64,000 nucleotides of DNA from Planctopirus ephydatiae (GTDB lineage Bacteria; Planctomycetota; Planctomycetia; Planctomycetales; Planctomycetaceae), in assembly GCF_007752345.1 (NCBI RefSeq), contig NZ_CP036299.1:558001-622000 (forward strand), given 5' to 3'. Position 1 is the first letter of the stretch, and every line of letters begins with the position of its first letter. Below are positions 36,387-46,807 of the stretch, piece after piece. Made by a program: the position numbers and the translations under genes. The notes under the pieces were generated by a model that ran no database searches, was not told where the DNA came from, and saw only the letters and a program-made list of their open reading frames with translations.

Positions 36387-36504
36387 GTGTTTCCGCTCGT
36401 GGCCAACGAGTAACCCTGACTGTGCAACACGGCACATGGGACGCTCAGTCTGCCCTCTCGACGCTCAAGCTGGGTTCCCTGCAGCAAACGGTTAGAGACC
36501 GAAA

Positions 36505-36855
36505 TCATGCCTGAGTCAACTCCACTTTGTGTCCGTCCGGATCGATAACAACGGCTCGACGGCCCCATTCAGAGTCACGAGGTGCGCTGGCGACTGTGTC
36601 TGGATAATCGCTCAATGCGACTATTGCCTCATCAACCGATGGGACTCGAAAGCCAATGCGAGTGCCCAGTGTGGATGCTCCGTCGGACTCTGGATAAAGC
36701 TCGAACACACCGCCCCCCGGCAACTCTGCGGCGTAGTGCTCAGGCCCCGCACCATGCCTTTGCTTGCTGAAGTGCAAACCAAGGCGTGAGTAGAATGCAG
36801 CGGCACGCGTTATGTCCGGCGACCTCAAGACGACGAGATTCAGGGTGATATTCAT
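36505..36855 (-). CDS. VOC-superfamily (glyoxalase/bleomycin-resistance-like) protein
   Basis: A 116-residue single VOC unit pair: LNLVVLRSPDITRAAAFYSRLGLHF at the start, a middle strand GGGVFELYPES, TRIGFRVPSVDEAIVAL opening the second beta-alpha-beta3 module, and the end RRAVVIDPDGHKVELTQA. Metal-ligand Glu residues are plausible at ELYPE and VELTQ. VOC proteins include isomerases, dioxygenases and antibiotic-binding proteins; no specific function can be assigned. Start ATG 36855; the frame continues upstream to 36978 but without homology-like sequence. Confidence 0.85.
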   Translation of the reverse strand: MNITLNLVVLRSPDITRAAAFYSRLGLHFSKQRHGAGPEHYAAELPGGGVFELYPESDGASTLGTRIGFRVPSVDEAIVALSDYPDTVASAPRDSEWGRRAVVIDPDGHKVELTQA

Positions 36856-36984
36856 TACGCGTAACAGGCTCCTGGCAACACATTGTACCGAATGCGGCGA
36901 GTGATGCTTATCGTCGCAGCAGATACCAAGCCGCATCCGGTGCATGCGATGTTTTGGATTATCACCACGTTCCTTCAAGAGACT

Positions 36985-37118
36985 TCGAGCAGTTGTCGTG
37001 CTCGAACATCAATCGACCGCAGTAGACCGAATTGTGGTTCCTGCACCAACACCAATCGGCTGAGGTTAGGCTGCTGGAACTCAATATCGAGGATCTACGC
37101 CCACTCGAAAAGCGATAA
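36985..37118 (+). pseudogene. Frameshifted 3' end of an unidentified gene
   Basis: Plus-strand text reads RAVVVLEHQSTAVDRI in one frame, then after a shift ELWFLHQHQSAEVRLLELN and IEDLRPLEKR, ending in TAA at 37116-37118. A strong hairpin begins at the last base of the stop, as expected for a real gene end. No start exists upstream. Family not recognised. The remainder of the 36856-37322 gap shows no gene. Confidence 0.35.
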
Positions 37119-37146
37119 GGCTCTTCGATCAGTTATCGAAGAGCCT
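37118..37146 (+). terminator. Strong intergenic hairpin, terminator-like
   Basis: AGGCTCTTCGAT (37118-37129), loop CAGTT, ATCGAAGAGCCT (37135-37146): a perfect 12-bp stem. A T-rich run on the plus side is weak (CTGTGTTA). It fits as the terminator of the decayed gene just before it. Confidence 0.55.
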
Positions 37147-37322
37147 CTGTGTTACATCCAAGCGGAGAGAACAGGACGCCGTTTGAACTTTTAGCCGAAG
37201 GCGTGCGCGGATGGGACGCCGATTTTAGGCAACTTTTTTCCTCGTCGGAAAGTGGAAGGTGAAGTTGAGAAATGTTTTAGGAGCGGGACAACACCAAGCT
37301 GCGTTCATGAGATAGGCCCTAT

Positions 37323-38120
37323 TTACCCGCGCCGGCCAGGCGGAACGCCTGGTTTGGCAAAGATGCGCTTGCAGTGTCCGCACGCCTCCGCGTATCCCGG
37401 GACCGAATTCGTGCAGTAAGGGCATTCCTTGACCCGACTTCTCTCAGCTGCCTCGATCAACCCAGCCGCAGATTCGCGGCCGTCGGTCGATTCGGTTACT
37501 GATTCGCGGCTGCTGGTCGCGTTGACCAACTCAGGCGGCGGTTGCATCCGTCCGATCACCAGATCGGTGGAATCGCACGGCAGCCCGAACCTGCCAGTCA
37601 TTCGTTTTAATTCGCAGCCGGTCATCTCGGCGATCGTCTCGCCATGGCGCTCATGTTCGCTGACCAGCACCCGCTGGCCGGTGCAGAGCTGCACGAACAC
37701 CCCGTAGTCGGGCGGGTTATCCGTCGTATATCGGATCACGTGGTACTCGACGCCGATCACGTCGTCGAGCGGCACCACCCAGAGAACATTGTCCAGCCGC
37801 CTGACCTCCCGCAGGCAGGTGAGGCTACCATGGTCGCTGTCGAACCAGTAGACCCGGCGACCACGCCGGAGGAGGGACAGTGTCAACAGGGCAGGCAGGA
37901 TGCCCACACCGCCGCAGAACAGGCCAACCACGGCCAACTGTTCATTTAAGTTCGGTCGGCCGACCACCCACCAATTGATTGCAGCATCAACAACGAGGAG
38001 AACAATGATCAGAACGATGATGGCGCCCCACAACACCGTAACGATGAGCAGGGGCGGCAGCAGGCAACCGGGAGGCTCACCAACGGTGCATCGGAGAACG
38101 AGGGGTGCATCGCGTCTCAT
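37323..38120 (-). CDS. Membrane protein with two TM helices, beta-rich domain and C-terminal zinc ribbon
   Basis: 265 residues. Two TM segments (about 22-44 and 62-84) are followed by a beta-rich, PH-like stretch (about 88-180: RVYWFDSDHGSLTCLREVRR, WVVPLDDVIGVEYHVI, FVQLCTGQRVLVSEHERHGE). A polar linker and a zinc ribbon CPYCTNSVPGYAEACGHC (Cys233, 236, 247, 250) complete it. Function unknown. The divergent neighbour at 38499 has the same order of parts twice, so the two are probably related. The ATG at 38120 is the start; a 378-bp gap separates them. Confidence 0.75.
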   Translation of the reverse strand: MRRDAPLVLRCTVGEPPGCLLPPLLIVTVLWGAIIVLIIVLLVVDAAINWWVVGRPNLNEQLAVVGLFCGGVGILPALLTLSLLRRGRRVYWFDSDHGSLTCLREVRRLDNVLWVVPLDDVIGVEYHVIRYTTDNPPDYGVFVQLCTGQRVLVSEHERHGETIAEMTGCELKRMTGRFGLPCDSTDLVIGRMQPPPELVNATSSRESVTESTDGRESAAGLIEAAERSRVKECPYCTNSVPGYAEACGHCKRIFAKPGVPPGRRG

Positions 38121-38498
38121 GTCCAGCGTCCTCAGCAGAGTGTCCGATGAAATGAAACTGAGATCGATTATTTGCGAGACAAGTTCAATGGAATCTCACA
38201 ATAGCAAACTTGCAGGAGAATAAGGAGAATCCAGTCGCGCGAAGTGACCGAGCAACTCTTGCGAGGCAGAACCAAGAGATGAGCTGAGTGACCAATGCAA
38301 AGTAGCGAGCAAAACTCGGCTACTGGCTGCAAGCACCGTCCCTTCAAAAACTGCAAATTTCGCTTGCGAATGTTCCGTTAATTTCTCCTTTTTCCGTAGC
38401 AGGCGGATACCTTTAGGGAGAACGACATTTGAAAATTAACTCGACGATTGCAAGGCGGTCACCGTGATGTGGTTCCAACTCAAATGTAGTCGATAGCC
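38121..38498. other. Divergent gap between two zinc-ribbon membrane protein genes
   Basis: No gene is seen. The region must contain both promoters; no convincing -35/-10 or operator could be picked. Confidence 0.45.
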
Positions 38499-40034
38499 GT
38501 GTCCCGATTTATGACCGATCATTCCCCAGACATCCCTGGGCTGATTCTCCATGATCGGTCCCTGGACCGGGTCATTTTCTCTGCTGACACCCAGGGGACG
38601 ACGATTCAAGGCGCGAGGCTGACAGCGGCGCTGCTCATTGGAGGGAGTACGCTCCTGCTGGGAGCGCTCGGGATCATGGGGGCTGCTGTTGGAGGGCCCG
38701 GCTGGCTCGTGGTCTTCGGATCGTTGTGGCTGTTTGTCATTGGTTTCGTGGCCCCGGGTCTTCTGGAAATCGAGCGGACGGCTGCTTCTAAGACAATTGA
38801 GATCACTGGCGACACAGTCACCGTGAAATACCAACTGCTCTGGGGCGTACACACGGAAACCTATCCTGCTGAGTACGATCTGGTGGTCAAGTGGCTGGTT
38901 GTTGTACCAACTGAGCCACGCAATGAACCCAGGTATCACATCGAATTGGTGGGATCCTATTGGCGCATCCCGTTCGGATACGACTGGCCCAAAGATGTGC
39001 AAGCACAATTTGTGCGATGGCTGCGTCTTCAAGTCGGACAAACCTTGCGGGCGACTTGCCCGAGTTGCCAGTCTGGTCTCTCGGTGCGAAACGTTGATCG
39101 TGCGAGCGGTCGACAACACTGTTCAAACTGCGATTGGAGCAGTCGGGGCCGACAGTCCCCGATGCTGAGCACGGCTGAGGGGAATCTTTTACTGCCACCC
39201 TTATCGGCAGGGCCACTGCGTGTCGAACTCGCGACACCTGAGGCGCTTATTGTTCGGATCGGGACGCGGCTCACGAGCTGGCTGGTCCTGTTAGCAATGC
39301 TGCTGGTCGTTGCTACCTTTTCGATGTGCTGCGTGGCCGGTTTGCTCGTTCCGGCGAGGAACAATCCGCAACAGGCCGTTGACATCGTGGGCAGCGTTTG
39401 GGTGGGCGCGATCGCGATTGGTCTGGTGGTTTGCGTCGTACTGTATTGGCACCGCCACTACCGGCAGACGATCACGCTCACAGCGAATCGATCGCGCCAA
39501 GAGGTGGAGATTGAACGCAGCGTCGGCGGACTCCCCATCCGTACATGGGTCACATTGGAAGGAGGTGGCTACGTCAGTGGCGAGCCCGTTCCGTGGCCAT
39601 GGGCAGGCTTGGTCAGCGGACCTCTTCGAGCAGTCACGGAAACAGACCCGGACGTGCAACTCGTCGACGCTAACACACATCGAGTTCACAGCTTGGGACA
39701 ACGCTTACGGCATTCTGAGCGCCGCTGGTTGAGCGTTGTGCTTAACAGGTTTCTCGGCACGCCACAATTTTCTACGCCGGATGGCCAACCATATCCGGAA
39801 ACGTGTGGGCTGTGTGGCAGAGACTTATCTCCGGAGCAAATTGACACGGAATCTGGCGTGTTATGCTGTGCCGGGTTTCCGGATTGCCTCTGGAGCACGT
39901 CGGTCGGCTCCCACGATCACGAAGCGGCGGAAAAACTCGCACAGACGCAAGCTGCTATCGACAAAGTCCGGCAACAATGGAGCGAAGGAGTGAAAGGTTG
40001 GGGCCGGTGGCAAGCAAGATTCCGCAGGAAATAA
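38499..40034 (+). CDS. Membrane protein with a duplicated two-TM / beta-rich / zinc-ribbon module
   Basis: 511 residues. Module 1: TM 41-63 and 68-90, a beta-rich stretch 98-180 (IEITGDTVTVKYQLLWGV, YHIELVGSYWRIPFGY), zinc ribbon with Cys187, 190, 208, 211 (CPSC...CSNC). Module 2: TM 258-283 and 296-317, beta-rich 322-412 (ITLTANRSRQEVEIERSVGG), then a second Cys cluster CGLCGRD...CCAGFPDC (436, 439, 456/457, 463). A short charged helix closes the protein. Function unknown; the likely orientation is with ribbons in the cytoplasm. GTG 38499 or ATG 38511 may be the start. It diverges from the one-module protein at 37323. Confidence 0.75.
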   Translation: MSRFMTDHSPDIPGLILHDRSLDRVIFSADTQGTTIQGARLTAALLIGGSTLLLGALGIMGAAVGGPGWLVVFGSLWLFVIGFVAPGLLEIERTAASKTIEITGDTVTVKYQLLWGVHTETYPAEYDLVVKWLVVVPTEPRNEPRYHIELVGSYWRIPFGYDWPKDVQAQFVRWLRLQVGQTLRATCPSCQSGLSVRNVDRASGRQHCSNCDWSSRGRQSPMLSTAEGNLLLPPLSAGPLRVELATPEALIVRIGTRLTSWLVLLAMLLVVATFSMCCVAGLLVPARNNPQQAVDIVGSVWVGAIAIGLVVCVVLYWHRHYRQTITLTANRSRQEVEIERSVGGLPIRTWVTLEGGGYVSGEPVPWPWAGLVSGPLRAVTETDPDVQLVDANTHRVHSLGQRLRHSERRWLSVVLNRFLGTPQFSTPDGQPYPETCGLCGRDLSPEQIDTESGVLCCAGFPDCLWSTSVGSHDHEAAEKLAQTQAAIDKVRQQWSEGVKGWGRWQARFRRK

Positions 40035-40186
40035 CAGTAAAAAACCAGTTGAACTCTGCCCCACCACGAAGTCGAACGCCCTCACCGACCGGTTTCATAC
40101 CATGCGTCCGGGACGCTTTCTTGGGCAATCGCTCGCCAAGGCATCAACGCCACCGCAACACGAACGCAACGTCAATGCAATATGAG

Positions 40187-40273
40187 CGGAGAGGGAGGGA
40201 TTCGAACCCTCGGTACCCTTTCGAGTACACAGCATTTCCAGTGCTGCACAATCGACCGCTCTGCCACCTCTCC
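40187..40273 (-). tRNA. tRNA-Ser, anticodon GGA
   Basis: On the minus strand the acceptor GGAGAGG pairs with CCTCTCC, followed by discriminator G. The anticodon stem CAGCA/TGCTG encloses CTGGAAA (anticodon GGA, reading UCC/UCU). There is a long class II variable arm (TGTACTCGAAAGGGTACC), and the T-arm is GAGGG-TTCGAAT-CCCTC. 87 nt; the 3' CCA is not encoded. Confidence 0.97.
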
Positions 40274-40371
40274 AGAAGGAATGGCCAAAGCCATTCTTGT
40301 CTCAGCCAAAGTTCAGGCGATGCTTCAACTCGCCAGGAGACCTATGGCTCGAATATTTCTCAGCTGTCTTA

Positions 40372-40614
40372 TTACTCAGCGGCTTCTGTGCCGGCCTTGC
40401 GGGCAGCGACCAGTTCGTTGTTCTTTTCAATCACGGCGACGGCATTCAGCCGGCGGGAAATCTTCAGGCAGTTGGCAGAAAGCTCGCGGTAGGCTGGGTA
40501 CTTCGAGAACTTCGACTGCTCAACACCAGCCTTACCCAGTGTTTCAGCCTGCTGAGCCAGTGCTTTGCGGGCGGAGGAAAGCTGACGTTCGAGAACTTCA
40601 CGGCTGAGTGGCAT
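40372..40614 (-). CDS. Small helical protein of unknown function
   Basis: An 80-residue soluble protein predicted to be almost entirely helical: MPLSREVLERQLSSARKAL, QQAETLGKAGVEQSKF, ISRRLNAVAVIEKNNELVAA. The length and heptad-like spacing suggest a coiled coil or helical hairpin. Not recognised. The frame opens at 40656; ATG 40614, just before the conserved-looking start, is preferred. It lies 98 bp downstream of the tRNA-Ser gene on the same strand-reading side (transcribed toward it). Confidence 0.7.
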   Translation of the reverse strand: MPLSREVLERQLSSARKALAQQAETLGKAGVEQSKFSKYPAYRELSANCLKISRRLNAVAVIEKNNELVAARKAGTEAAE

Positions 40615-41278
40615 GGAAAAAACCTTTCGATACAGCTTCAACTTCTGCAAAGACATACGACAAAGGCAGAGTTGAATTGATTTAGCCTAAGCTGATGTCT
40701 GTGAGAATCTTTTGTCGGGATCTGGCCAGAGCCAGTTCAGTTCAACCATTTCAATATGAACAGAATTCGCAGATCAAGGTCGACAATAAAACAACACAAT
40801 GCCGGGACTTAATCCGCGAAAGAAACGGGCAGTTTCGCAGATTAGCCGCTGTCCTTCAACTCCACGGCATATCAGATTTTTCAGCAGGCCCATGCAGCAC
40901 CCCATGGCTGCTGCGGATCCTCCCGAGCTTGGTCGAGCTTGTTCAGATCGCTGAACTCCCCGGTGACTTTTGGCCACAGGCAGGGAGCTTTCACCACGAG
41001 TGTTTCTTTTTCACCTCAAAGCCCTGTTGCCAATTTCCCACAGTGGCTTTTGTGGAATGCATAATTCGCAAGCTTCTTCCATGAAACGCTTTATGTCGAA
41101 ATCAGAGCGGCTGAAGTGTCATCCCATGTGGCCTTCTGGCAACGTGATCAAGTGGAAGTGAATTCGAAAGGAGATGTGCTTATAAAACAAAGGCCGAGCC
41201 GTAACATTATGGATATAAACGAGTTGCAGTGATTAACCTGCCTCGAAAGTGTTCAGTTGGTGGAACGGTGGATCCCGT
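40615..41278. other. Gap without a supported gene
   Basis: About 660 bp between the small helical protein and the pilin promoter. The longest open frame (40695-41084, plus) has no coding character or homology I recognise. Confidence 0.45.
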
Positions 41279-41297
41279 TTGGCATTCAAGGTGCTTT
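41279..41297 (+). promoter_or_regulatory. Candidate sigma-54 (-24/-12) promoter of the pilin-like gene
   Basis: TTGGCATTCAAGGTGCTTT has GG at 41281-41282 and GC at 41293-41294, exactly ten bases apart, and TTGGCA agrees with the sigma-54 -24 element. The -12 box reads GTGCT (consensus TTGCW). The start of transcription would be near 41306, giving a leader of about 80 nt before the ATG at 41386. Confidence 0.55.
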
Positions 41298-41385
41298 ACA
41301 TTCTGTCATCACCCGGCAACAACTCAACACTGCTGGTAACGCTTAACTGCCACCACAAAACTTCGACTCAGAAAGATCTCGAATC

Positions 41386-41694
41386 ATGGCTCATCTGCTC
41401 AACCAACTGATCAACGACGAAGCTGGTTTCATCGTTTCGGCTGAACTCGTCCTCGTCTCGACCATTGCTGTCCTGGCCATGATCGTCGGCCTGTCCGAAG
41501 TCGCCCTTAACATCAACAACGAACTCGAAGACGTCGGTGCTGCCTTTGGCAACATCAACCAGTCTTACAAGGTCGGTGGACTCGATGGCCACATGGGTGG
41601 TACCTACGGCTCTAAGTACAGTGATCGTCAAGACTTCTGCGATAACTACTGCAATATCGTTCCGAACGGTGACTTCTCAGGCGAACGCCCATAA
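41386..41694 (+). CDS. Small pilin-like single-TM protein
   Basis: 102 residues. A short N-terminal part (HLLNQLINDEAG) is followed by a hydrophobic helix with an early Glu (FIVSAELVLVSTIAVLAMIV) and an amphipathic continuation (ALNINNELEDVGAAFGNI), the layout of type IVb/Flp-like prepilins. If cleavage is after Gly14, Glu is at +6, not the usual +5, so this is not a standard Flp. The exposed tail is Gly/Asp-rich with two Cys (FCDNYCNIV). Probably a membrane-anchored surface subunit. It has a candidate sigma-54 promoter upstream and a strong terminator downstream, so it is a one-gene, likely highly expressed unit. Confidence 0.7.
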   Translation: MAHLLNQLINDEAGFIVSAELVLVSTIAVLAMIVGLSEVALNINNELEDVGAAFGNINQSYKVGGLDGHMGGTYGSKYSDRQDFCDNYCNIVPNGDFSGERP

Positions 41695-41733
41695 GGCTAA
41701 CGCTCCATCGATCGCAGATTCAGAGACACCCAA

Positions 41734-41787
41734 AAGCCAAGAGCCTGTTGGACGGCAATCCAACAGGCTCTTGGCTTGAATGTTTTT
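41734..41787 (+). terminator. Strong intrinsic terminator of the pilin-like gene
   Basis: A perfect 19-bp stem: AAGCCAAGAGCCTGTTGGA (41734-41752), loop CGGCAA, TCCAACAGGCTCTTGGCTT (41759-41777), then GAATGTTTTT. It lies 40 bp after the stop. Confidence 0.9.
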
Positions 41788-41869
41788 AATGAACAGTCAC
41801 GTTACAGCGCAATACCCTGGCCAACCAGATCTGGCTGTCGGCTGGAAGTGGCGCTTCTTCAGTTCAAAA

Positions 41870-41968
41870 TTACGTACGAACCTTAGCTCGCTTGGCCTTC
41901 CGGGCCTTCGAACTGGCAGGACGTGTACCATGATTGGCGGGCTTCAGTTTGCGTGTGTTCTTGGCCAT
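41870..41968 (-). CDS. 32-residue very basic mini-protein
   Basis: On the minus strand an ATG at 41968-41966 opens 32 codons and a TAA (41872-41870). The product begins MAKNTRKLKPANHG, continues TRPASSKARKAKRAKV and ends RT; 13 of 32 residues are Lys or Arg and none is acidic. It has the look of a small ribosome- or nucleic-acid-binding protein (compare short basic ribosomal proteins such as bTHX), but it is not a known ribosomal protein that I can name. The codons are unbiased and free of stops in a gap otherwise without genes. It reads toward the pilin terminator, which could end it too. Confidence 0.6.
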   Translation of the reverse strand: MAKNTRKLKPANHGTRPASSKARKAKRAKVRT

Positions 41969-42208
41969 GTTGGGCTACTTTTGAGAAAGCACTAGACGAA
42001 CTACAGAAATTTTTCCTTGGTAAGCAAGGAGAAAAGAGTGTAATCGAGTCCTTTCCCTTTGCCAAGCGAGTGCCGGAAGAGCCAGATTCACTGCTCGGAA
42101 AGAATGGCATAACTTCATTCAATGCATGGCGTTATTGCGATCTAAGCGATATTCTTCAGAGACTGGTTTTGGCTGGGTCAGGTTCTGAATTCAGGAAAGT
42201 GCGGGACA

Positions 42209-43243: not shown

Positions 43244-46200
43244 GTGGAAACGAACCTGAAGCAGAAAGTCTCGACGATGGGTTCGCCAATTGAAAATGGT
43301 CAGGCAGGATTCGCAGGTGGAGGAATCAATCCTCTCGCAGCGGCTGACTGGACCATTGATGTCGAAGCGGAAATCCATCAGCTGGACCACCGGGCCTTTG
43401 TGGTCATGCCGCGTGTCCTGCGACGGGTGATTCGCAGTGAGCTGGAGTTGTCGAGCATCTGGCTGAGCGTGCCCCACTCGAGAACCTATGTGATTCCTCG
43501 CGACAGGCTGGTCTGGTTTGTGGCTCGTGATGAGCTGGGAATCGAGATCGGCGAAAGTTTGCCCGATACGATCATTCTCCTTGCACGCGAAGATCGATTT
43601 GCGGGGACGCCGATTGAAAACAAGCCTCAATTGCTGCGGCTGTACTGGCGGGCGCTCTTTCATGCCCGGCTCGATCTGGCCATGTATCAGAAGGTCGAGC
43701 CCGGCCGTTTTTCCCTGGCGGAACTGCGTTCGAGAATCGACCAGATTGGTCAAACAGAATTCGATGAGATCAAAGGGGTCTTAAAGAGTGAAGGTCTGCT
43801 TCTCGATTCAGAAAACCACCGGCAGATTTACGCGGAATTCGCCGCTTTGTTCTTCGAATTGAAGTTTTTTGAGCCAGACCTGCTGTCGTACTACTTTCCT
43901 TCCCTTGGCATCAACGCTGCACTCGAAACCATGCTGCGCGAAGGGATTGCTGTCGAAGAGATCTATCGGGAAACATGCCCGCAGGAGCTGAAGACCACAG
44001 TGATTCAGGAAGATCAGGTTATCCCCACTGAGGTATCGCCTGAATCTGGCCATCGAAAACGACAGAAACGATCAGCAATCAGAGCCAGATGGTTTGTTCG
44101 AGCTGCCATCAAGCCCGCCGCGAGAGGTAACGATGCTCGTGCGGCGATTCTTCTGGCCAGCGCGCTGGAAGCGGCACCTGCGGAGATGACTCGGGACATT
44201 CAGTCGCAATTCGAAACTCATCTGGATCGTCTGGCAACACGGCTGATTCATGCTCTCGAGCTGGAGGCATCGACCCATACTCGCTGGAAGGAAGTTCTCG
44301 CTTCTGTGGCAGAAGCTGCCCAGTATGGATTTTGGAATAACGCCTCGCGACTGGTTTACGACCTGCAGAAAGTTTGCATCGATTCCGAGCGGGAAACCTA
44401 TCAGATCGATACCTGGCAATGGCTGTTTTCCTTCGGACGTAAACCACTCAAAACGCCACTTCCCAATCAGAAGCTCGTGCTCATTACCCGCCATTTGCGG
44501 TTGGCCATTTCCCGCATCGGAGCCGCACAGATTGCTCCCCGGCATCGCGAAGAACTTTATCTGCTGCTCGAGGATGCGGCCCATTCTGCCGAGAAACTGG
44601 CACGCCGGCAATTGAAGCCCTTGATCGAAGAAGCCCTGCGCACTTCGGGTCTGGTGAGTACGAACTTTGTCGAGACCATGGCCTTTGGCAGAGTCGTCGA
44701 TGAACTGCTTGATCACGTCGTTGAACAAGGCTTCTTTGGGCTGGGACATGTGCGCGATGCACTCTCGCGGAACGCTCTCAAGCTATCTGATCTTTCGAGT
44801 GTCAAGGAGTTCTTTGGCGGAGACGCCTTGCTGAAAACTGATCGCGCACTGGAAAAACCACTGGCAGGCGTTTATCAGCGCGGGCCGCTCTACCTGCGAG
44901 GTTTTCAGCGGTTGAGTTCGCTCGCTTTTGGTTTACCTGCTGGTCGGATCTTTACCAAATTTGTCGCGCTTCCTTATGGCGGTGCGTACGTGATCCTCGA
45001 AGGCTTGCAGCATCTCATCGGGCCGATTGTCGAATGGATGACGGAACATCATCTGCATCTGGCCACGCTGGAAAGTGTGTTTGTCTGCGGCACGTTTCTG
45101 TTGGCACTGATTCATGTTCCTACTTTTCGACAGAAGCTGTGGAGCCTGACAGAATCGACCTGGAAATTTCTGCGAGCCGTGGCTTATGACATTCCCCATT
45201 GGCTGCTGAAGCAGAAGCTCGTGCAGGCTTTCTTACGCAGCTTACCAGTGAAGATCATCCGCCGGTACCTGTGGACTCCAGCCCTGGTGACAATGGCCAT
45301 CTGGCTGGCTGTCTGGACAAGTGGACAGTTGCCTCAGCGATGGAACTGGATGGCCATGGGGACATTTGTATTGAGCATGTTGCTGCTCAACTCGCGAATG
45401 GGACGGGACACCGAAGAACTCGTGACTGAATGGGCCTCAGAAATCTGGCATCAGTTCCGCGTTCGAGTGGTCGTAGCACTGTTTTCATTCATCCTCGATA
45501 TGTTTCGTCGTCTGATGGATCTGATCGAACGTGTACTCTACACTGTCGATGAATGGCTGCGATTCCGATCGGGGGAATCAGCCATCTCGCTGGGCTTTAA
45601 GGCCGTGCTGGGAGCGTTCTGGGGAATTGTCGCTTCCGTCGTCAGGTTCTGTGTCACCCTTTTGATTGAGCCACAGGTCAACCCCATCAAGCACTTTCCT
45701 GTGGTGACAGTTTCTCACAAGCTACTGTTACCACTCGCCATTCCACTGACCAAGTGGAGTGCTCCGCTATTGTCACCCGTTTTTTCAGCGTTTATTGGTC
45801 ATCGATTTGGTCATTGGCTGGCCAACGCGATGGGGACCATCATCATTACCTGCATCCCGGGTGTATTTGGTTTTCTGGTCTGGGAACTCAAAGAGAACTG
45901 GCGACTCTATAAAGCCAATCGCAGGAAGGATGTCGGGCCAGCCATTATCGGACATCATGGCGAGACCATGCTCCGTCTACTCAAGCCCGGCTTTCACTCC
46001 GGAACAATCCCGAAGCTCTTTGCACGCCGACGCAAAGCCGCCCGGCTCGATAAGCCGGAAGACCGCCTGCGCAAGCTGGCTCGTACAGAGACACAACTCG
46101 AACAACTGATCGAGTCGTTGCAGCATTTCATCGAGCGTGACCTCCTACGGTTTCTGGAAGCTTCCGAGCTTTGGACACGACCAGCGCCAGAGATCAAAGC

Positions 46201-46807
46201 GATGTCGATTGCGACCAATCGAATCGTTATTCAGCTCAGTGATCCTCAACCTAGTGATCGTCAACTCAGTGATTCTGAATCTCTCCATGAAGATGCCGAA
46301 CTGGAATTTGCCGAACAATCCGGGCTGATTGTGGCTGGCTGGAGAAAATCGGGCTGGATTCAACATCTTCCCGAGGCAGAAAGCCAGGTCTTACGACTGG
46401 CCCTGTTGGGTTTTTACAAATCCGGCACCGTGACTGTCATTCGCGAACAGATTGAAGCCAGACTGTGCGATCATAATCGGCGTTACGACATTGGGACGGA
46501 AGGGATCATTCTGTGGCCTGATCCCAGCTATCGCGAAGAAGTGATCTACTCACTCAGCGATCAGCCCATAATTCACCCGCGTCCTCGCGCCGTTGCCAAA
46601 GCGAATGGCCTCGAATCGATTCGCCGTGATGAAGTCCTTTATCAGGATCAGACTCTCGAATGGGATGCGTGGGTCGCTGCCTGGGAATGCCAGAAGCCCG
46701 CTGAATTAATGACTGATGGAGGACAACCTCGATTGTTGCCCTCCATCATGGTCTTCTCGGCAGAAGATAAACCGGCTGATAATCAGGCCGCTGCGACTGA
46801 AGGTTGA
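43244..46807 (+). CDS. Very large multi-TM protein of unknown function
   Basis: 1187 residues, not recognised. Residues 1-570 are soluble and mostly helical (ELRSRIDQIGQTEFDEIKGV, ARAAILLASALEAAPAEM). About seven hydrophobic segments follow between 575 and 885 (e.g. LESVFVCGTFLLALIHV, VTMAIWLAVWTSG, MGTFVLSMLLLN, VVVALFSFILDMF, LGAFWGIVASVVRFCVTLLI, IIITCIPGVFGFLVW). A soluble C-terminal part has a coiled coil (ETQLEQLIESLQHFIERDLL) and three copies of a 5-residue unit QLSDP/QPSDR/QLSDS. Start is GTG 43244; ATG 43277 is an alternative. Its 3' end overlaps the convergent TylF-like gene by 25 bp. Confidence 0.8.
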   Translation: METNLKQKVSTMGSPIENGQAGFAGGGINPLAAADWTIDVEAEIHQLDHRAFVVMPRVLRRVIRSELELSSIWLSVPHSRTYVIPRDRLVWFVARDELGIEIGESLPDTIILLAREDRFAGTPIENKPQLLRLYWRALFHARLDLAMYQKVEPGRFSLAELRSRIDQIGQTEFDEIKGVLKSEGLLLDSENHRQIYAEFAALFFELKFFEPDLLSYYFPSLGINAALETMLREGIAVEEIYRETCPQELKTTVIQEDQVIPTEVSPESGHRKRQKRSAIRARWFVRAAIKPAARGNDARAAILLASALEAAPAEMTRDIQSQFETHLDRLATRLIHALELEASTHTRWKEVLASVAEAAQYGFWNNASRLVYDLQKVCIDSERETYQIDTWQWLFSFGRKPLKTPLPNQKLVLITRHLRLAISRIGAAQIAPRHREELYLLLEDAAHSAEKLARRQLKPLIEEALRTSGLVSTNFVETMAFGRVVDELLDHVVEQGFFGLGHVRDALSRNALKLSDLSSVKEFFGGDALLKTDRALEKPLAGVYQRGPLYLRGFQRLSSLAFGLPAGRIFTKFVALPYGGAYVILEGLQHLIGPIVEWMTEHHLHLATLESVFVCGTFLLALIHVPTFRQKLWSLTESTWKFLRAVAYDIPHWLLKQKLVQAFLRSLPVKIIRRYLWTPALVTMAIWLAVWTSGQLPQRWNWMAMGTFVLSMLLLNSRMGRDTEELVTEWASEIWHQFRVRVVVALFSFILDMFRRLMDLIERVLYTVDEWLRFRSGESAISLGFKAVLGAFWGIVASVVRFCVTLLIEPQVNPIKHFPVVTVSHKLLLPLAIPLTKWSAPLLSPVFSAFIGHRFGHWLANAMGTIIITCIPGVFGFLVWELKENWRLYKANRRKDVGPAIIGHHGETMLRLLKPGFHSGTIPKLFARRRKAARLDKPEDRLRKLARTETQLEQLIESLQHFIERDLLRFLEASELWTRPAPEIKAMSIATNRIVIQLSDPQPSDRQLSDSESLHEDAELEFAEQSGLIVAGWRKSGWIQHLPEAESQVLRLALLGFYKSGTVTVIREQIEARLCDHNRRYDIGTEGIILWPDPSYREEVIYSLSDQPIIHPRPRAVAKANGLESIRRDEVLYQDQTLEWDAWVAAWECQKPAELMTDGGQPRLLPSIMVFSAEDKPADNQAAATEG
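46232..46276 (+). repeat. Tandem 15-bp repeat inside the large membrane protein gene
   Basis: Three consecutive 15-bp units with core CTAGTGAT/CTCAGTGAT encode QLSDP-QPSDR-QLSDS. It keeps the reading frame and could vary in copy number between strains. Confidence 0.7.

Follow-up and report, generated by a model that had tools for sequence, protein, structure and literature searches.

Tandem transmembrane hairpin and PH-like modules with putative zinc ribbons in a Planctopirus protein whose planctomycete relatives often lie beside MATE transporter genes

Within a 64,000-nucleotide stretch of Planctopirus ephydatiae DNA (C1:558001-622000 of the single-contig 5.2-Mb genome; hereafter the window), two divergently oriented genes encode the membrane proteins P0001 and P0002. 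Good evidence places P0002 (plus strand, 38499..40034; 511 amino acids from a GTG start, with an in-frame ATG four codons on), as a divergent member, in a planctomycete family that joins zinc-ribbon motifs to transmembrane (TM) hairpins and PH-like domains, and sequence comparisons support the presence within it of two homologous TM-TM-PH modules with ribbons. Because the predicted fold is analogous to that of EROS and many of its relatives have genes coupled to that of a MATE transporter, we propose that the module could serve polytopic membrane proteins by assisting their assembly or stability or by regulating them, an idea to which we lend slightly less credence than doubt. The divergent neighbour P0001 (minus strand, 37323..38120; 265 amino acids, ATG start) may be a remote single-module relative.

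An initial annotation of this region had described the order TM-TM-beta-ribbon once in P0001 and twice in P0002, and hydropathy, structural models and cysteine positions confirm this layout. The open reading frames (ORFs) lie where they had been placed. P0002 runs from a TM pair, a beta region and a ribbon through a second such set to a C-terminal helix, all on the plus strand. Its module 1 (residues 20-184, 38556..39050; modelled elements at 24-182) consists of a TM hairpin (residues 35-92, 38601..38774) followed by predicted PH-like strands and a helix, and module 2 (residues 238-422, 39210..39764) of a predicted PH-like barrel that is interrupted by its own hairpin (residues 260-320, 39276..39458). 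Both hairpins are called from model and hydropathy, the modelled helices lying at 35-64/68-92 and 260-283/290-320 and the hydropathic stretches at 41-91 (three overlapping), 250-287 and 292-319. Ribbon 1 (C187, C190, C208, C211; 39057..39131) aligns with the N-terminal ribbon of the relatives and ribbon 2 (C436, C439, C456/C457, C463; 39804..39887) with their middle ribbon, in agreement with the ribbon limits of 187-211 and 436-463 given earlier. The spacing of these cysteines fits putative zinc ribbons, the last knuckle of ribbon 2 being C-x5/6-C instead of CxxC; the G-F-P-D-C pattern at its end resembles the C-terminal zinc fingers of topoisomerase I more than CxxC ribbons. The C-terminal helix spans residues 472-510 (39912..40028), with block means of the predicted local distance difference test (pLDDT) of 84-90 over 481-510. 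All Pfam matches of P0002 (RNHCP, DctQ and others) were under cut-off, and neither P0001 nor the relative L061 gave a Pfam match above one.

The annotation had suggested the duplication and fusion of a single module, to be examined by profile-profile comparison of all three copies, and for the two modules of P0002 this comparison bears the suggestion out. Against a profile of 42 modules (domains scoring above 20 bits to the m1 profile, identical ones removed), module 2 reached an hhalign Prob of 93.8 and module 1 a Prob of 73.8 alone or of 94.3 together with ribbon 1, the last alignment covering residues 99-215 only, in register; in each of these cases 0 of 100 column-shuffled controls reached the score. 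In hmmsearch with the same profile, the score of module 1 was reached by 1 of 1000 local shuffles, as was that of module 2 without its ribbon, and neither score was reached in 1000 once the ribbon was included. Module 2 is the better match of the two, both to the family and to the structure 8kei_D discussed below, and aligned with the family's module 1 (alignment A3) at Prob 88.9 over 177 columns; modules 1 and 2 of the family aligned with each other at Prob 92.1 over 109 columns. Smaller comparisons gave less: module 1 of P0002 matched the first small profiles weakly (Prob 24.4 and 11.9) and did not rise above shuffles with a first 17-sequence m1 profile (100 and 83 of 1000), and BLASTP of module 1 against module 2 returned an 88-residue stretch at E 0.26 and a 15-residue, out-of-register stretch at E 0.006, neither of them convincing. 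The profile of the relatives' second module (m2) matches neither P0002 module, which rules out that P0002 is simply the usual module pair. P0002 reads as module-ribbon twice and most two-module relatives as ribbon-module-ribbon-module, and P0002 may have undergone its duplication separately from them.

The first matches to P0002 were weak, came from proteins of 450-510 amino acids in other planctomycetes and lay around P0002 residues 380-445. Many first weak matches of P0002 and P0001 were dropped as ribbon-only, as frames with stops or, by reading, as unrelated (cardiolipin synthase-like, methyltransferase-like and MscL-like); the 450-510-residue proteins, together with L003 and L092 (see below), were kept after reading of the ORFs. 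Seven mutually well-aligned relatives of 450-510 residues form alignment A2, from which a 437-residue protein of other arrangement (L007) and one cut at a contig end (L008), both present in A1, were left out, as L062 was from A3 and A4. The common order in A2 is [ribbon]-TM-TM-PHlike-[ribbon]-TM-TM-PHlike, some members being without one or other ribbon, and the best-conserved part of the family is a helix motif, E-K-x-W-[LFI] ... I-N-x-F-L. A genome scan with A2 returned 15 loci (L063-L077), 14 from planctomycetes and one labelled only 'bacterium', and three of them (L067, L076 and L077) encode a single ribbon-TM-TM-PH module of ~260 residues. In the window's genome the A2 profile detected P0002 at E 1.6e-4 and nothing else up to E 10. 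P0002 186-457 aligns by BLASTP with residues 5-261 of L063 (E 1.8e-8, the set searched being a small group of relatives), colinear with their ribbon-TM-TM-PH-ribbon, and in alignment A6, which has 16 rows with P0002 as the first, the relatives' ribbon-module-ribbon is colinear with P0002 187-470. The module is found elsewhere, as a search outlined in the annotation was meant to reveal: among the 377 genomes of the class, A6 matched 39 at E <= 1e-9, a count that includes the window's own genome and several whose proteins built the profile. At E <= 0.01 the count was 110 of 377, most weak matches, including another site in the genome of the window itself (E 4.3e-4), covering the ribbon end of the model only.

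Proteins of the family carry from one to several modules, duplicated or fused in many relatives. Beside the two-module gene, extra genes reading as single ribbon-TM-TM-PH modules number four in L063 (6605-9566), two in L062 (37-1579) and at least one in L061/L098 (10017-10733, L098 being the L061 region), most of them identified from the sequence by eye and not with a profile; those of L063 and L098 sit between the two-module gene and a MATE gene. L145 (404-4224) has adjacent ORFs of 530 and 749 amino acids with about two and three modules, and L133 (708-3809) has two tandem family genes.

A PH-like fold, which the annotation had proposed to seek by structure prediction, is seen in the model of P0002 (AlphaFold2 with the A6 alignment; mean pLDDT 65, predicted template modelling score 0.47), best in module 2. 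There, strands 240-245 and 249-255 precede the TM helices, and strands 324-330, 335-342, 345-352, 385-389 and 396-402 and a helix at 405-418 follow them, with block-mean pLDDT mostly at 74-92, such that the TM pair is modelled between strands 2 and 3. From this model we are fairly confident that module 2 has a PH-like fold split by a TM hairpin. Module 1 is modelled with a similar order, at low confidence (block-mean pLDDT 33-74): one strand, 24-28, stands before the TM pair, and strands 97-103, 106-113, 116-123, 133-138 and 145-150 and a helix at 165-182 come after it. The top VIA-align match of model residues 238-422 was 8kei_D (Z 9.2, root-mean-square deviation 3.7, 149 of 164 residues). 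Second came a TM hairpin only, at Z 7.7, and most of the rows below 8kei_D are either lone TM hairpins or domains of the PH, PTB and related types, these domains scoring Z 4.5-6.3. The title of entry 8kei names NOX2 with p22phox and EROS, and the entry is described as the EROS/NOX2/p22phox structure in the excerpts cited (PMC13296129). As far as the excerpted descriptions go, the PH domain of EROS comprises residues 1-20 and 62-166, and its strands 2 and 3 are separated by an insertion of two TM helices that is called unobserved among known structures, with PIGH predicted to be alike (PMC9767466). EROS is reported there to bind immature gp91phox, to prevent its degradation and to regulate P2X7 (PMC9767466); excerpts of three papers have it stabilise client membrane proteins (PMC9767466, PMC13296129, PMC5379978), and EROS and Ycf4, the latter described as its plant relative, are presented as assembly/stability factors of membrane complexes (PMC9767466, PMC5379978).

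The annotation had found nothing in the sequence to indicate a function, which stands for the P0002 locus itself; the recurrent MATE coupling of its relatives, however, is a functional clue. With linkage scored by tblastn of six MATE proteins at E <= 1e-6, a MATE gene adjoins the module gene, follows it after module paralogues or lies within ~2 kb of it at 21 of 42 relative loci, divided into 11 of the 15 loci of the L063-L077 set and 10 of 27 further loci, and MatE (PF01554) was matched by all seven downstream proteins scanned. At two linked loci (L063, L098) the MATE gene stands behind single-module paralogues; the others are L064, L065, L067-L069, L071-L075, L109, L110, L114, L116, L121, L122 and L125, together with two at a distance, L137 (~1.35 kb) and L138 (~2 kb, with a second weak module ORF in between). 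The linked loci include the one-module gene of L067. Loci seen more than once were counted once (L143, which equals L066, and the part of L100-L105 that repeats loci of L063-L077), and those cut at a contig end (L108) or with no long flanks (G167, G379, G125, G111, G018 and G045) were left out. MATE is the next gene at 10 loci of the L063-L077 set, and in 8 of these 10 the last bases of the module gene contain, at the same place, an in-frame ATG of the MATE gene, forming an 8-base ATGnnTGA overlap (L064, L068, L069 and L071-L075; in L072-L075 longer in-frame MATE starts exist upstream as well). Identities fall as low as 44% among 11 MATE proteins and 26% among their module proteins, and since an overlap of stop and start kept across such divergence is not expected by chance, coupled translation is suggested. 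Distant module relatives stand, by reading, beside an amino-acid-permease-like gene in L149 (4470-7097) and a cation-antiporter-like gene in L146 (5450-8683). Two genes recur upstream of the family gene, in L063, L065 and L067 and in L072-L075 and L130, one of them by reading class III aminotransferase-like and the other Nif3-like.

On our best reading P0002 is a tandem of two membrane-split PH modules, each a predicted PH-like beta barrel with two TM helices inserted near its start and a closing C-terminal helix, followed by a putative zinc ribbon. Were the module an assembly or regulatory factor, helices of the client would pack against the TM hairpin and client loops would be bound by the PH face on the cytosolic side, with the ribbons setting the geometry of the modules or making additional contacts; in many relatives the module gene and MATE would be translated as a coupled pair. 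Such client binding, and a chaperone or regulator action with it, we infer by analogy. A narrower form of the proposal, in which these are planctomycete EROS-like chaperones, arrayed with ribbons, multiplied in tandem and, in many species, coupled to a MATE that they fold, stabilise or gate, and in which P0002 is a re-arranged copy moved to another client, strikes us as rather doubtful. The ribbons and the transporter also bear on a different possibility, that the modules are sensors whose ribbons or PH faces detect a metal, redox state, lipid or drug and gate a transporter or signal, with no role in assembly. Most relatives do have one or two ribbon motifs per protein, the coupled transporter is of multidrug type, and PH domains classically bind lipids or peptides. 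The PH modules are nevertheless kept where CxxC pairs are absent, both near MATE (L123/L137, L124/L138 and L125) and with no MATE nearby (L126/L139, L127/L140 and L129/L142), and because of these relatives we do not regard the ribbon as the core of the module; no known sensor domain was found in the proteins scanned, and a sensor function appears clearly unlikely to us.

Several observations weigh against an EROS-like assembly or regulatory role for P0002, some of them touching the fold and others the genomic context. The block-mean pLDDT of module 2 dips to 39-59 at residues 351-390, module 1 is uncovered by relatives in the model's input alignment, and the overall mean pLDDT is as low as given above. 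A Z of 9.2 is little above the 7-8 typical for the best matches of models with no clear match, and Foldseek placed 8kei_D second with E 0.087 and probability 0.87, with no match to the P0002 model at E <= 0.001. That chain D of 8kei is EROS/CYBC1 (C17orf62) we infer from its chain length and the match itself. No sequence relation to EROS or Ycf4 was detected, PDB profile matches up to E 10 included, and we accordingly describe P0002 as built like EROS, not as EROS; their Pfam families are absent from the matches of P0001, P0002, L061 and ten further proteins and do not occur in the part of the list, 25 of 51 families, given for A2 members. No MATE lies near 21 of the 42 relative loci by the tblastn test (L066, L070, L076, L077, L130-L136, L139-L142 and L144-L149; some contigs are short, and L070 has only ~0.9 kb of downstream sequence). 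The 64-kb window likewise holds no MATE at E <= 1e-6, leaving P0002 without a MATE or recognised transporter beside it: of nine other nearby proteins in a Pfam scan, four were matched (glyoxalase-like, DMP19-like, molybdopterin oxidoreductase-like and methyltransferase-like), five had no match at E <= 0.01, and none is a recognised transporter. The single MATE relative found in the genome (49% identity) is at C1:411853-413193, ~183 kb from P0002, with no recognised module gene beside it. P0002 was also not found in three same-genus genomes at E <= 0.001, and it may on that account be a recent acquisition or dispensable. One of these genomes gave weak matches to P0002 (E 0.017 and 0.043) and nothing at E <= 0.01 with the A6 family profile; the other two gave ribbon-length A6 matches only.

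P0001, the third copy in the duplication originally suggested, is tied to the module only weakly (hhalign Prob 2.2 directly and 40.7 indirectly). On the minus strand, the protein consists of a TM hairpin (residues 21-86, 37863..38060, from model and hydropathy), a beta-like region (residues 88-175, 37596..37859, from a low-confidence model, conserved in L003), a linker and a C4 zinc-ribbon motif (C233, C236, C247 and C250 by cysteine spacing; 37371..37424) that sits far behind the beta region. Its hydropathic TM stretches are 16-55 and 60-85, its modelled helices 21-53/58-86. The single-sequence model (mean pLDDT 47.9) does not render the beta region with confidence, shows two strands of at least three residues there and was judged too poor for a structure search. 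The only close relative found is L003, a 203-residue protein of a sister species with 47% identity and no ribbon. BLASTP detected no likeness between P0001 and P0002 (E 0.22), and a scan of the genome with P0001 found no relative. By hhalign, P0001 gave Prob 1.7 and 8.0 against the family modules and module 1 of P0002 gave Prob 0.2 against the P0001 set. The direct Prob of 2.2 is that of P0001 with L003 against the 42-module profile, where 45 of 100 shuffles were at least as good; hmmsearch with the module profile scored P0001 at 5.8 bits (46 of 1000 shuffles) and L003 at -1.2 bits (880 of 1000). That P0001 arose recently by duplication of a module of P0002 is unproven, given the lack of BLASTP likeness and an hhalign score no better than shuffles.

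The indirect link passes through the small L092 family, which hhalign weakly aligned with P0001 at Prob 40.7 over 145 columns (2 of 100 shuffles reach the score), a link that is favoured, and may lean towards P0001 and L003, because the family was gathered using a profile that contained both. The L092 family itself aligns with the 42-module profile at Prob 93.7 over 169 columns (0 of 100 shuffles), and its own profile scores P0001 at 9.2 bits (26 of 1000 shuffles), L003 at 12.1 bits (24 of 1000), P0002 module 1 at -2.7 bits (781 of 1000) and module 2 at 3.4 bits (85 of 1000); hhalign of the P0002 modules against the L092 family was poor (Prob 0.9 and 4.7), and L092 by itself, with E 0.0037 across the 397 genomes searched, fell short of significance. 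These results bear on the possibility that P0001 and P0002 are unrelated small membrane proteins with a coincidentally shared layout, P0002 being a poorly constrained orphan without a selected partner. The lack of direct similarity between the two, the shuffle result for P0001 with L003, the missing ribbon of L003 and the lack of a P0002 match at E <= 0.001 in the three same-genus genomes all speak for coincidence. P0002, however, retains both ribbons and both TM hairpins, with the family helix motif (E-K/R-x-W-L ... N-x-F-L) present in module 2 and absent from module 1, while P0001 is conserved in the sister species and weakly linked to a family that is itself module-like, and we therefore consider coincidence unlikely.

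P0002 is flanked by the divergent P0001 on one side and by a tRNA-Ser on the other, the tRNA being the sole Rfam match over 36500-42000. A promoter scan found none, and terminator-like sites numbered 5 against 3.3 (standard deviation 1.9) in shuffles. Further along the window lie a short ORF that by reading resembles a Flp-type pilin (41386-41694) and a 1187-residue protein with, by reading, several hydrophobic stretches (43244-46807), neither with a Pfam match at E <= 0.01.

The annotation had called the module undescribed. As regards the exact family this is true of the libraries that were searched, and in the open-licence literature, partly judged by title, we found no paper on a ribbon-TM-TM-PH family; the fold class, however, has been described, in DUF304/DUF1200/DUF2244, EROS/PIGH and Ycf4. 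What appears new is the fusion to ribbons, the tandem arrays and the coupling to MATE. DUF304, DUF1200 and DUF2244 have been proposed as one bacterial PH (PHb) group of potential TM proteins (PMC2817789, as excerpted). As here, DUF2244 (PF10003), DUF304/bPH_2 (PF03703) and DUF1200 have TM helices joined to a PH-like domain, whereas the PHb alignments suggest a missing strand 1, in place of the two strands before the TM pair of P0002 module 2, and, unlike P0002, the excerpted account mentions no ribbons (PMC2817789). DUF2244 scored weakly in 3 of 7 relatives (best E 0.0027; 15.2 bits in L061 with a cut-off of 27) and had no match in P0001, P0002 or the genome; we rejected membership, judging these scores unspecific because 12 of 14 control genomes show them too.

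The same group raises the possibility that the modules confer tolerance to envelope stress or antimicrobial peptides in the manner of Bacillus YdbS/YdbT (DUF304, bPH_2), as membrane-flanked PH repeats that would protect the membrane or aid peptide export. YdbS/YdbT combine TM helices with PH repeats, the same general plan as here, but are not known to carry zinc ribbons. Consistent with such a role are the membrane association proposed for the PHb families, bPH_2 scores in L140 (13.8 bits, E 0.069) and L142 (12.6 bits, E 0.17) under the cut-off of 22, and the PH proteins DdE/DdF, which an excerpted report finds to be required for enterocin DD14 export (PMC8657885). There was, however, no bPH_2 match in P0001, P0002 or L061, and the 25 of 51 families given for the other A2 members do not include bPH_2, and we hold a tolerance function to be decidedly improbable. 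DdE/DdF, set beside the family by description only, do resemble the MATE-linked relatives as bacterial PH-domain proteins tied genetically to a transport system, though that system is an ABC exporter of a bacteriocin, not a MATE.

For the assembly or regulatory proposal, the nearest comparison is with EROS. Like module 2 of P0002 as modelled, EROS/CYBC1, a human chaperone of NOX2, is described as membrane-anchored, with a PH-like barrel whose strands 2 and 3 are separated by an antiparallel pair of TM helices; it differs in its single PH domain, in the absence of any mention of zinc ribbons from the excerpted sources and in having no detectable sequence similarity to P0002. PIGH, a subunit of a GPI-synthesis enzyme compared here by description only, is predicted to share the split PH organisation of EROS (PMC9767466, as excerpted). 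The clients given for EROS and Ycf4 are NOX2, P2X7/P2X1 and photosystem I, whereas the relatives of P0002 are linked to MATE instead. If our proposal is true, the family would point to accessory proteins for MATE transporters and would offer a tractable bacterial system in which to ask whether chaperoning of membrane proteins is a general property of split-PH proteins. EROS and Ycf4 are presented as assembly factors dedicated to membrane complexes, and the planctomycete family would then be their widespread bacterial counterpart by build, fused to ribbons, amplified in tandem and coupled to MATE.

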